Shown in pieces: positions 20,231 through 23,136 of a stretch of DNA of 36,190 bases. Each line of letters opens with the position of its first letter. Positions within the stretch are counted from its first letter, which is position 1. Position numbers and translations under genes: made by a program. Origin of the DNA: a virus. Location of the stretch: positions 1 through 36,190 of the IMG/VR virus record IMGVR_UViG_3300021197_001618. One strand, written 5' to 3'. The notes below the pieces were generated by a model. That model was given only the letters and a program-made list of their open reading frames with translations. It was not told where the DNA came from and ran no database searches.

Positions 20231-20676
20231 GCGAACCAACCTACGGCGAAATCATCAAAGCAGCTCGCGAGGCGAAAGGCTGGAGCAATCAGAAGTTTGC
20301 CTCCGAAGCCGGCCTTAGCGATTCCACGACACACGCTGCAGAGAACGGCAAAACCAATCTGACTAGAACGACACGCATCAAGATCGAGGGTGCGCTTGAT
20401 CTGTCGATTACGCCGTGCACTTTTGATGAGAAAACTTTCTTCAGGACACAGAGTGCCGCGACCAATACTCCTGACGGACCAGCCCTGTGGAGTTTGGAGT
20501 GGTCGCAAGAATTGAAGCGGTGCCGCTTGAACAGAAATTGGACGCCAACTGAACTAGCGCGCAAAGCCGACATCGGAGTTAGCCAGCTTTACGCGGTTGA
20601 GTCTGGGCAACGAATCCCACGCTTAGACGTAGCGATGGCGCTGAGCGATGCGCTGGGGATGGCTATCGAATGGTGA
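20227..20676 (+). CDS. Regulator with two XRE-type helix-turn-helix domains
   Basis: Of 149 residues, about 8-45 (IIKAAREAKGWSNQKFASEA) form one XRE-type fold and 91-149 (LEWSQELKRCRLNRNWTPTE) a second. The second is homologous to the whole of the next gene product, sharing W..EW.Q..KR and the ending DALGMAIEW, which points to an in-operon duplication. It could bind operators as a pseudo-dimer. The ATG overlaps the previous stop as ATGA. The last 31 bases are one copy of a three-copy repeat. Confidence 0.8.
   Translation: MSEPTYGEIIKAAREAKGWSNQKFASEAGLSDSTTHAAENGKTNLTRTTRIKIEGALDLSITPCTFDEKTFFRTQSAATNTPDGPALWSLEWSQELKRCRLNRNWTPTELARKADIGVSQLYAVESGQRIPRLDVAMALSDALGMAIEW
20644..20674 (+). repeat. 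31-bp direct repeat, copy 1
   Basis: Begins AGCGATGCGCTGGGG and ends TCGAATGGT. It covers the last codons of the two-domain regulator (SDALGMAIEW). Identical copies start at 20862 and 21618. Copies 1 and 3 also share the next two bases (GA). Confidence 0.95.
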
Positions 20677-20894
20677 TGGCAACGGACGGAGATGACCCGA
20701 AAGGGTGGGTGCGCGAGTGGGCGCAGGACATGAAGCGGGAGCGTGTCAAACAAGGTATGACGATGGCTGTACTCGCTCAACTGTCTGGGGTTCCGAAAGG
20801 CTCGCTATCCCGTTACGAGACTCTGGAGAGAGAGCCTGTGCTCAGCAATGCAATGGCAATCAGCGATGCGCTGGGGATGGCTATCGAATGGTAG
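20676..20894 (+). CDS. Second XRE-type regulator (paralogue)
   Basis: This 72-residue single helix-turn-helix protein (REWAQDMKRERVKQGMTMAV, then SGVPKGSLSRYETLERE) ends in the same SDALGMAIEW as the gene before it. I start at the ATG at 20676, which overlaps the preceding stop as TGATG; the ATG at 20670 would add two residues. The proteins have diverged, yet their last 31 bases are identical, so the end has been copied or conserved for a DNA-level reason. Confidence 0.78.
   Translation: MATDGDDPKGWVREWAQDMKRERVKQGMTMAVLAQLSGVPKGSLSRYETLEREPVLSNAMAISDALGMAIEW
20862..20892 (+). repeat. 31-bp direct repeat, copy 2
   Basis: Identical to copy 1, 218 bases downstream of it. It forms the 3' end of the second regulator gene. 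Copies 2 and 3 bracket the YkgJ-like gene. Confidence 0.95.
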
Positions 20895-20910: not shown

Positions 20911-21606
20911 ATGAACTGCGAATTTAAGGAAAGTCCGAAAAAGGTAAAACACGCGGAAAAGTTCGCACGGGATAGAAACCGTGAGATTCAAGACGCATTA
21001 AGGAAATTCGGAGAATCAAAAAGGCTTACCCGAATCCGCAAACGTTCGTGCGGCGACTGCACGGAATGCTGTACTTCGATGGCGGTAAATGAGATCGACA
21101 AGCCATCAGGGGAGTCCTGCGCGCATGTGCGTTGCGATGGGTGTGCCATCTACTCAAACAGACCGTATTCCTGCGCCGCTTGGTCTTGCCTTTGGTTGTC
21201 AGGATACGGACCCGACTCTGCAAAGCCATCTGCTTCCGGGTTTGTGGCTCACTTTAGCTATCAGACAGACAATGTGATTGTCGCTCACATTGTATCTGCC
21301 ACGCCGTATGAATCAGAACCCGCGTTAGACATGATCGAAGAGATCGACATTGGACTACAGAAAAGATACGGCCAGAACACCAGAGTCTTCGTTATGGCGG
21401 AAGACAACAGCGCCGAGAAATATCCGTTCACTAGCGACCCTAGATTGGTGGTGAGCATGATACGGAACCACGCTATCGAGGGGCGCGCGGACCAACTCAT
21501 CGGCCAAACCAAGAGCAGTATCTGCCCGGCATCAAACATCAGCTATAAGGAAGCGCGAAGGGGCGGTATATCGCAGCACTCACCTAGTCCAGCAGGAACT
21601 CGTTAG
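20911..21606 (+). CDS. YkgJ-like cysteine-rich metal-chelating protein
   Basis: This 231-residue protein has nine clustered cysteines (residues 47, 50, 53, 54, 70, 75, 78, 88, 93) in the order CGDCTECC...CAHVRCDGCAIY...RPYSCAAWSC. This matches the putative zinc- or iron-chelating YkgJ/UPF0153 family. The second half is a mixed alpha/beta region with VIVAHIVSAT and TRVFVMAEDN. GGGGGAG lies upstream of the ATG. The last seven codons and stop are supplied by a 26-bp sequence copied from the end of the SprT-like gene, so the natural C-terminus may have been altered. The gene lies between two copies of the 31-bp repeat. Confidence 0.8.
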   Translation: MNCEFKESPKKVKHAEKFARDRNREIQDALRKFGESKRLTRIRKRSCGDCTECCTSMAVNEIDKPSGESCAHVRCDGCAIYSNRPYSCAAWSCLWLSGYGPDSAKPSASGFVAHFSYQTDNVIVAHIVSATPYESEPALDMIEEIDIGLQKRYGQNTRVFVMAEDNSAEKYPFTSDPRLVVSMIRNHAIEGRADQLIGQTKSSICPASNISYKEARRGGISQHSPSPAGTR

Positions 21607-21610
21607 CTTG
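21585..21610 (+). repeat. 26-bp repeat of the SprT-like gene end, left copy
   Basis: TAGTCCAGC-A-GGAACTCGTTAGCTTG matches 23164-23189 at 25 of 26 bases in the same orientation. The right copy is the functional 3' end of the SprT-like gene (codes ANEFPLD on the - strand). This left copy has no SprT gene attached and ends the YkgJ-like frame. Confidence 0.93.
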
Positions 21611-21617
21611 TGTTTGG

Positions 21618-21648
21618 AGCGATGCGCTGGGGATGGCTATCGAATGGT
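21618..21648 (+). repeat. 31-bp direct repeat, copy 3 (orphan)
   Basis: Identical to copies 1 and 2, but no regulator gene precedes it; only seven bases separate it from the SprT-derived repeat. It lies just upstream of the methyltransferase ribosome site and looks like the remnant of a third regulator gene end. Confidence 0.93.
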
Positions 21649-21674
21649 GAACGATAAGAGGGAGGGCTCATCAG

Positions 21675-22625
21675 GTGTCACTTCGTGAGCTGGCATTATT
21701 CGCGGGCGCTGGTGGCGGAATACTCGGCGGCAAGCTGCTTGGATGGCGCACAATCTGCGCTGTCGAAAACGAGCCCTATGCCCGCGACGTTCTCATGGCT
21801 AGACAAAACGACGGATGTCTCGAAGCCTTCCCGATCTGGGATGACGTGCGAACCTTTGACGGACGACCTTGGCAGGGCATTGTTGATGTCGTTTCAGGCG
21901 GCTTCCCGTGTCAAGACATCAGCGCGGCCGGAAAAGGCAAAGGCATTGAAGGCGAGCGCGCCGGGCTTTGGCGCGAGTTCGCTCGCATCATCGGCGAAGT
22001 ACGACCTAGCTTCGTCTTCGTGGAAAACAGCCCAATGCTCACTTCTCGGGGACTCGGAACCGTTCTCGGAGACTTGGCCGCGCTGGGGTTCGATGCGGAA
22101 TGGGGAGTGTTGGGAGCGCACCATGCCGGCGCTCCGCACAAGCGGGACCGGATCTGGATCTTGGCTTGCAACTCCGACCGCGACAGCGAACCAACTCAGC
22201 CCGTCGATGATGAAGCATCCGGGATGCCGAGCTTGGATGTTACCAACACCAGCGGCGAGCTCATACGGAACAAATCAAGGCGGCGCAGCGGGACGAACAG
22301 GCAAGGTTCGACCGAGCTTAGACACGATGGCGCGCAAAAACATGTGGCCGACACCGACAGTGCAGGACGCAAGCAACAATGGCGGCCCGTCTCAAATGCA
22401 GCGGAACACAAAGCCACTAAATGCGGAAGTTGGTGGAAGTCTGAACCCGACGTGGGTCGAGTGGCTCATGGCGTGGCCGCTCGAGTGGACCGATTGCGCT
22501 GCATCGGAAACGGACAAGTTCCAGCAGTGGCAGCGCTCGCATGGGAAACGCTGATTGACCGAATCGCGAGCCACAGCACGCCGATCAGCAGCGCGAGCGT
22601 GAAGCCGGGTTCCGGCACCGCGTGA
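21675..22625 (+). CDS. DNA (cytosine-5) methyltransferase
   Basis: The 316 residues hold the motif order of C5 methyltransferases. Motif I is LFAGAGGGILGGKLLG (8-23), motif IV is GGFPCQDIS with catalytic Cys79, motif VI is FVENSP, and motif VIII is HKRDRIWIL (R157 and R159). A variable target-recognition stretch covers about 166-255, and IX/X is DRLRCIGNGQVPAVAA (272-287). It probably protects phage DNA from restriction or alters expression; no partner nuclease is visible. The start is GTG with GGAGGG eight bases upstream. Residues after about 292 are non-conserved and lie antisense to the PEP-CTERM-like gene. The whole gene is overlapped in the +1 frame. Confidence 0.93.
   Translation: MSLRELALFAGAGGGILGGKLLGWRTICAVENEPYARDVLMARQNDGCLEAFPIWDDVRTFDGRPWQGIVDVVSGGFPCQDISAAGKGKGIEGERAGLWREFARIIGEVRPSFVFVENSPMLTSRGLGTVLGDLAALGFDAEWGVLGAHHAGAPHKRDRIWILACNSDRDSEPTQPVDDEASGMPSLDVTNTSGELIRNKSRRRSGTNRQGSTELRHDGAQKHVADTDSAGRKQQWRPVSNAAEHKATKCGSWWKSEPDVGRVAHGVAARVDRLRCIGNGQVPAVAALAWETLIDRIASHSTPISSASVKPGSGTA
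21685..22554 (+). CDS. Overlapping +1-frame WPTP-motif protein
   Basis: This 289-codon frame lies wholly inside the methyltransferase gene. Unlike a random shadow it shows a run of motifs I recognise from phage proteins of unknown function: SSWKTAQCSLLGD, TWPRWGSMRNGECWE, RTSGTGSGSWLATPT, SSYGTNQGGAAGRTGKVRPS, MWPTPTVQD and a C-terminal LNPTWVEWLMAWPLEWTD. GTG at 21685 has AGGTG seven bases upstream. Database relatives may themselves overlap methyltransferases, so real translation is not proven. Confidence 0.45.
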   Translation: MSWHYSRALVAEYSAASCLDGAQSALSKTSPMPATFSWLDKTTDVSKPSRSGMTCEPLTDDLGRALLMSFQAASRVKTSARPEKAKALKASAPGFGASSLASSAKYDLASSSWKTAQCSLLGDSEPFSETWPRWGSMRNGECWERTMPALRTSGTGSGSWLATPTATANQLSPSMMKHPGCRAWMLPTPAASSYGTNQGGAAGRTGKVRPSLDTMARKNMWPTPTVQDASNNGGPSQMQRNTKPLNAEVGGSLNPTWVEWLMAWPLEWTDCAASETDKFQQWQRSHGKR

Positions 22626-22861
22626 ACGGGAATTTCCCGCGACCACTCGCTAAATTCGTCTCCGCGAATAGAACGACTGCGGACAAGGAAAGCAAGGCGA
22701 GGCAACTCAACCTGAGCTTCAAAACAGTCAACGCAGCCGGCAGCGGAATCTTGAACCCGCTGAACAAATTCCCAGTCGCCGCCGACGCGCTGAAATTGGA
22801 ACTCCCATCCGTCTACCAACTCGGGCTCGGCCTGATGCCAGTGTATTGTGAAGTCAGGCAT
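22466..22861 (-). CDS. FN3-like small protein with PEP-CTERM-like anchor
   Basis: This 131-residue protein has a first half rich in beta strands that resembles one fibronectin type III domain (FLVRSRSIRGDEFSEWSREI). It is followed by VPEPGFTLALLIGVLWLAIR (residues 82-101), a VPEP motif plus hydrophobic helix and Arg, as in PEP-CTERM sorting signals. An extra 30 residues follow, unlike typical PEP-CTERM ends, and there is no N-terminal signal peptide. The ATG overlaps the preceding stop as TAATG. Its 3' 160 bases are antisense to the methyltransferase end. Confidence 0.6.
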   Translation of the reverse strand: MPDFTIHWHQAEPELVDGWEFQFQRVGGDWEFVQRVQDSAAGCVDCFEAQVELPRLAFLVRSRSIRGDEFSEWSREIPVHAVPEPGFTLALLIGVLWLAIRSISVSHASAATAGTCPFPMQRNRSTRAATP

Positions 22862-23136
22862 TAACGTCGCCGCGCGACCGAATCTAGCCAAGCATACTTA
22901 GCTAGAGAGTCCGCTTCGATTTCGCTGCGTTCTAATTCAGAGACTCGACCTTCCTTTGCGAGTTGGTCTACATAGTTTGACAAGTCCACCGCCTCTGCCG
23001 CTGCCTCGCGTGCTGCATCGCCGCGAAAGGGATCACCGGGCTTTCGTCCGTACTCCTCAAGACCGTTTGCCCAAGCTGATTTCTTGCGTTGTTGAAACTC
23101 GTAGTACAGTTCTTCGATTCCTCGGCTCGCGTTCAT
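22861..23136 (-). CDS. Small helical hypothetical protein
   Basis: This 91-residue protein contains NGLEEYGRKPGDPFRGDAAREAAAEAVDLSNYV, a layout seen in small phage proteins of unknown function that resemble MazG-type helical bundles. The metal-binding residues of MazG are not clear, so I do not assign activity. AAGGAAA precedes the ATG. It belongs to the roughly 1.6-kb block bracketed by the 26-bp repeats. Confidence 0.65.
   Translation of the reverse strand: MNASRGIEELYYEFQQRKKSAWANGLEEYGRKPGDPFRGDAAREAAAEAVDLSNYVDQLAKEGRVSELERSEIEADSLAKYAWLDSVARRR

Follow-up and report, generated by a model that had tools for sequence, protein, structure and literature searches.

Two overlapping, selected reading frames in a phage DNA cytosine methyltransferase gene and their probable role as two subunits of one enzyme

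The locus and its two reading frames

The window analysed here is a virus record of 36,190 bases, IMGVR_UViG_3300021197_001618. Its podovirus-like tail and head-tail genes, together with the terminase, are found on the minus strand, and on the plus strand a gene for a Sak-like annealing protein lies upstream of a gene for a C5 cytosine methyltransferase (MTase). A second open reading frame, P1, is nested wholly within the MTase frame (frame 0), in the +1 frame, and the overlap makes up 91% of the MTase gene (Table 1). An earlier note on this DNA had described the two frames, the 289 open codons and several motifs of the second frame, all of which we find in the sequence. It had also called frame 0 a complete C5 methyltransferase, and that holds only in part. 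Motifs I, IV (with PCQ), VI and VIII follow each other in order as in other members of PF00145, motif VI having ENS instead of ENV, the frame aligns to M.HhaI residues 12-176 (phmmer), and motif X is in frame 0 as well; but motif IX (LTPRECARLMGFP-like) is absent from this chain and has its counterpart in the other frame, and the part that separates motifs VIII and X is loosely constrained.

Table 1. Features of the overlapping gene pair, in window positions
Feature	Positions	Strand	Evidence
Translation start region: GGGAGGG-like ribosome site, MTase GTG at 21675, P1 GTG at 21685	21662..21687	+	sequence
C5 cytosine methyltransferase frame (putative alpha chain), 316 aa, GTG start, motifs I-VIII and X	21675..22625	+	PF00145 1e-33, phrog_363 2.5e-69
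P1 (putative beta chain; proposed subunit for target recognition and motif IX), 289-codon +1-frame ORF, GTG start	21685..22554	+	open frame, phrog_1008 9e-27, stop depletion, purifying selection
MTase motif IV, GGFPCQDIS, catalytic cysteine	21897..21923	+	M.HhaI alignment
P1 module SSWKTAQCSLLGD...MRNGECWE, P1 residues 100-147, over MTase motifs VI to VIII	21982..22125	+	census
MTase motif VI, FVFVENSPM	22011..22037	+	M.HhaI alignment
MTase motif VIII, GAPHKRDRIWIL	22128..22163	+	M.HhaI alignment
Stretch VIII to X, P1 constrained and MTase frame relaxed, includes P1 PTP segments	22188..22475	+	substitution classes
P1 motif IX-like segment GGSLNPTWVEWLMAWPLEWTD	22432..22494	+	conservation; compared with canonical RRLTPRECARLMGFPDTF
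MTase motif X, LRCIGNGQVPAVAALAWE	22494..22547	+	sequence; conserved across relatives

A promoter and terminator scan of the region gave no signals above chance. Some neighbouring features are worth recording. A cysteine-rich ORF of 231 aa (CGDCTECC...CDGC; 20911-21606, plus strand), with only a weak phrog_9155 match, lies upstream of the MTase, and antisense to the MTase 3' end there is an ORF of 141 aa (22466-22891, minus strand), without a Pfam match, whose end, VPEPGFTLALLIGVLWLAIRSIS, resembles a PEP-CTERM sorting signal. A 43-nt repeat with an identical 31-nt core is present in three copies (20632-20674, 20850-20892 and 21606-21648), two of which specify the C-termini of HTH_3 regulators lying one after the other (...SDALGMAIEW); the third, directly upstream of the MTase, could be what is left of an HTH gene that was lost or recombined.

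Stop codons, start codons and selection

A long second frame over a conserved gene could be nothing but an annotation shadow, open and seemingly conserved just through the conservation of the underlying MTase, and the earlier note had left this option beside that of a true dual-coding pair. It had proposed that a shadow would be recognised by all relatives of the +1 frame overlapping an MTase and by stop codons appearing freely among homologues. The first of these is what we see: P1 is paired with an MTase in 80/80 genome loci and in nearly all viral loci, all relatives collected are either overlapping with or fused to an MTase, and none of them is an independent copy. The stop codons, however, speak against it. 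Loci were fetched with the MTase protein only, so the set was not selected for P1, and synonymous codons were shuffled within each gene to obtain the expected number of stops. For the MTase of the window a mean of 4.8 stops in +1 was expected and 0 observed (p about 0.003), and over 71 distinct loci the figures are 278 and 2, a depletion of about 140-fold, which holds also in the 23 loci with GC3 <0.5 (103 expected, 0 observed). The third frame of the same 71 loci is chance-like, with 977 stops against 907 expected, and 16 ordinary C5-MTases, taken as controls from bacterial genomes in which the nested pair is present too, have 170 stops in +1 against 177 expected. Conservation of the MTase motifs alone thus does not hold the +1 frame open.

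The start codon tells the same story. It is ATG or GTG in 71/71 of the MTase-fetched loci and is kept in 194/196 distinct loci, in most relatives 4 nt past the likely MTase start (ATGAATGAG) and in the window 10 nt past it. The MTase codon lying over the P1 start encodes Asn, Arg or His, and it is its third base that decides whether P1 has a start at all; in the 71 loci this codon is AAT in 60/60 cases of Asn, CGT in 9/9 of Arg and CAT in 2/2 of His, while Asn is written AAT in just 39% of cases elsewhere within those MTase genes. The P1 start is preserved through wobble choice. In one locus (L055) the second P1 codon is TCT and not AGY, with the MTase residue being Val and not Glu, and as TCT and AGY both encode Ser the P1 protein is unchanged.

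The codon-wise dual-frame test suggested in the earlier note was run in a simplified form of the OLGenie approach, in which isolated changes in 56 disjoint pairs of relatives were classed according to whether or not they are silent in each of the two frames (the first letter standing for the MTase), with bootstrapping over codons; only isolated changes are covered, and the tree is outside the model. Relative to changes that affect the MTase alone, those affecting both proteins are rare (NN/NS 0.12, 0.09-0.16). Doubly silent changes are in turn more frequent than those with an effect in P1 alone (SN/SS 0.41, 0.35-0.51), which means that P1 is under purifying selection, and in nested copies this includes its N-terminal part. 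Along motifs I-VIII the stronger constraint falls on the MTase (NS/SN 0.19). From motif VIII to motif X the relation is reversed: over MTase residues 166-245 a change that is silent in P1 and alters the MTase is about eight times as frequent as one of the opposite kind (NS 0.125, SN 0.016, NS/SN 7.9, 5.4-12.4). The stronger constraint on P1 is also seen in 24-residue bins, up to residue 267, and a larger set of pairs, which are non-independent, agrees in direction. The constraint flips between motifs VIII and X, P1 then being the constrained frame.

P1 is a real gene, and the pair is dual-coding, the first of the two options in the earlier note. The stop counts, the wobble choice at the start, the flip of constraint and the control MTases leave the shadow with practically no probability, and we reject it.

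Motif IX and the forms of the relatives

The motif IX that the MTase frame lacks has a likely counterpart near the end of P1, where LNPTWVEWLM.WP can be read against the canonical motif. The C-terminal consensus of the family, G.LNPTWVEWLMGWPLGWTD, resembles motif IX of the control C5-MTases, and a pattern of this kind occurs in 146/157 P1 frames and in 1/157 MTase frames, although the match is short and made by sequence pattern. Two residues of the window copy, Ala263 and Glu267, stand in place of what is mostly Gly in the family, and the activity of this copy is for that reason not assured.

All 73 aligned P1 proteins match phrog_1008, labelled "DNA methyltransferase" in PHROGs, a label that is silent on the missing catalytic motifs and on the overlying MTase frame. 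The window P1 matches no Pfam family, no convincing Pfam match was obtained for P1 and the split beta chains generally, and a PDB sequence search with a P1 profile gave nothing significant. P1 alone models poorly (AlphaFold, pLDDT 55.7), with two beta hairpins predicted at low to moderate confidence for the module at residues 100-147, and comparison of this low-confidence model with PDB structures, with no match at Z 2 or more, is uninformative on the fold. Out-of-frame HNH endonucleases have been found inserted in phage methylases, as in ShiLan (PMC11855218), and these share with our pair a second reading frame within a phage MTase gene. The ShiLan case is, however, a homing insertion that encodes about 195 aa, whereas here the overlap covers the catalytic motifs themselves, and an insertion of this type was rejected as no HNH family is among the Pfam matches of the 73 P1 members.

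Our census holds about 317 distinct loci, and since the searches were seeded with the family itself the counts do not measure prevalence. The nested architecture, with motif IX in +1 and motif X in frame 0, is seen in 286 loci and occurs widely, in the phages and prophages of many groups of bacteria. Ten clear loci have a split architecture, in which frame 0 holds motifs I-VIII and the +1 chain has P1 and then motif X (L010, L229, L248, L249, L250, L251, L272, L285, L288 and L290), and L048 reads as split too, by eye. In about 8 fused loci (L254, L256, L258, L287, L292 and others) the motif IX segment shares one ORF with motifs I-VIII, giving a single chain of motifs I-VIII, the P1 C-terminal segment and motif X, and the middle module of P1 remains in +1. 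Nearly all census loci with a match have this SWKT-MRNGE module in +1. A P1 profile built only from nested copies matches the in-frame segment of fused loci (L287 8e-19, L292 1.4e-14, L256 1e-9), weakly so in L254, L255 and L258, and recovers 0/16 of the ordinary MTases. The fused L292 is predicted to fold as a C5-MTase (M.HhaI Z 22.7, rmsd 3.4, 221 residues), its motif IX part being modelled at low confidence.

Relatives from plasmid and E. coli searches are annotated just as DNA cytosine methyltransferase, and no named enzyme was found among them. Seven loci (L071, L125, L181, L192, L197, L211 and L212) have an in-frame stop in the MTase and an intact P1, and in 5/7 the stop is at, after or close to motif VIII. 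The reverse is seen in L089, where P1 has a TGA and the MTase is intact.

The proposed two-chain enzyme

The earlier note had left open that the second protein was an unrelated one of unknown function. We think it much more probable that P1 is the missing half of the same enzyme, and that each frame encodes one subunit of a single heterodimeric DNA cytosine-5 methyltransferase. The alpha chain, from frame 0, would be the cofactor-binding catalytic domain with motifs I-VIII plus X, its stretch between motifs VIII and X being little more than a linker, and the beta chain, P1, would be the small domain with the DNA target-reading region plus motif IX. Ribosomes would load at one site and initiate at one or the other of two codons 4-10 nt apart, so that both chains would come from one message and then assemble. 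We infer the shared translation start and the assembly, and the DNA-reading role of P1 is suggested by its position, by the selection on it and by the fused relatives. It has been shown that MTases can reassemble when the cut falls between motif VIII and the recognition domain (PMC5944983). The purpose is probably to protect the phage DNA from host restriction.

A real overprinted gene could also have a function separate from the methyltransferase, for instance in anti-restriction or regulation. We hold this to be unlikely: P1 carries motif IX and sits in the gap between motifs VIII and X, its C-terminal segment occurs in single chains together with motifs I-VIII and X, and in the loci collected it was never seen without an MTase. 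The relatives with a stop in the MTase frame would fit such a role, or else recent decay, and count against the heterodimer; the N-terminal 60 residues of P1 and the SWKT-MRNGE module, neither with a known counterpart in MTases, also speak for a separate function. A ribosomal frameshift could instead join the early MTase frame to P1 in one chain of motifs I-VIII, recognition region and motif IX. In split relatives adjacent frames hold motifs I-VIII and IX-X, so that a shift close to motif VIII would yield a canonical chain, and the viability of such a chain is evident from the fused relatives. Yet the nested P1 has its own conserved start codon beside that of the MTase, its N-terminal part is under selection and motif X stays in frame 0 in the 286 nested loci, and we regard a frameshift as very improbable, even more so than a separate function.

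Heterodimeric C5-MTases with a separate motif IX subunit are, to our knowledge, known from very few enzymes. In M.EcoHK31I, which methylates YGGCCR, the large polypeptide has motifs I-VIII and X and the small one motif IX (PMC3404938), and judged by motif layout the heterodimer proposed here has the same division, with the caveat that motif IX of its small chain is a short sequence pattern. The recognition domain of M.EcoHK31I has been assigned to the large subunit (PMC3404938), opposite to our proposal, where selection and the fused relatives would place it in the small one, and this counts against the heterodimer, as do the poor model of P1 alone, the lack of a PDB match and the low-confidence motif IX of the L292 model. 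Another difference is the extent of the overlap in our pair. The small gene of M.EcoHK31I, too, was reported in 1995 to lie inside the large one in a different frame. M.AquI has motifs I-VIII in the large subunit and IX-X in the small (PMC3404938), which is the layout of the split relatives (L010, L229, L248, L285, L290 and others), whereas the window has motif X in the large frame, and one gene lies inside the other, those of M.AquI being consecutive.

The division of motifs into two chains is thus already known, with M.EcoHK31I as precedent. A description of such a pair in phages was not found in the open-access literature searched, and the size of the overlap, its breadth in phages and prophages, the flip of constraint and the existence of three forms (nested, split and fused) all appear to be new. 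It is about an even bet, in our opinion, that a target-recognition half overprinted on the catalytic half is a common arrangement among phages and prophages from many groups of bacteria, and that the three forms interconvert by frame changes with the set of parts kept constant. The SWKT-MRNGE module lies in +1 over motifs VI-VIII in nearly every locus, even the fused ones, and this part of the overlap may therefore never have been resolved in evolution, perhaps with the module as a separate obligatory polypeptide.

The locus is a long same-strand overlap whose reality can be demonstrated by stops, starts and substitutions across many relatives, with a clean control set, and as the constrained frame switches partway along the gene it makes testable how two differently selected proteins share the same DNA. 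A naturally divided C5-MTase whose recognition half is apparently a separate protein would be useful for studies of specificity and for split-enzyme methylation tools. The pair also explains one class of phage "hypothetical protein". In PP083311 (L164; 1501-2229) the P1 frame alone is annotated, under that name, and the overlying MTase frame was missed. In Arthrobacter phage KHumphrey (L162; 1125-2181) the overlapping genes 42 and 43 are both annotated as DNA methyltransferase, and together they represent this enzyme in its split form, encoded in two frames.
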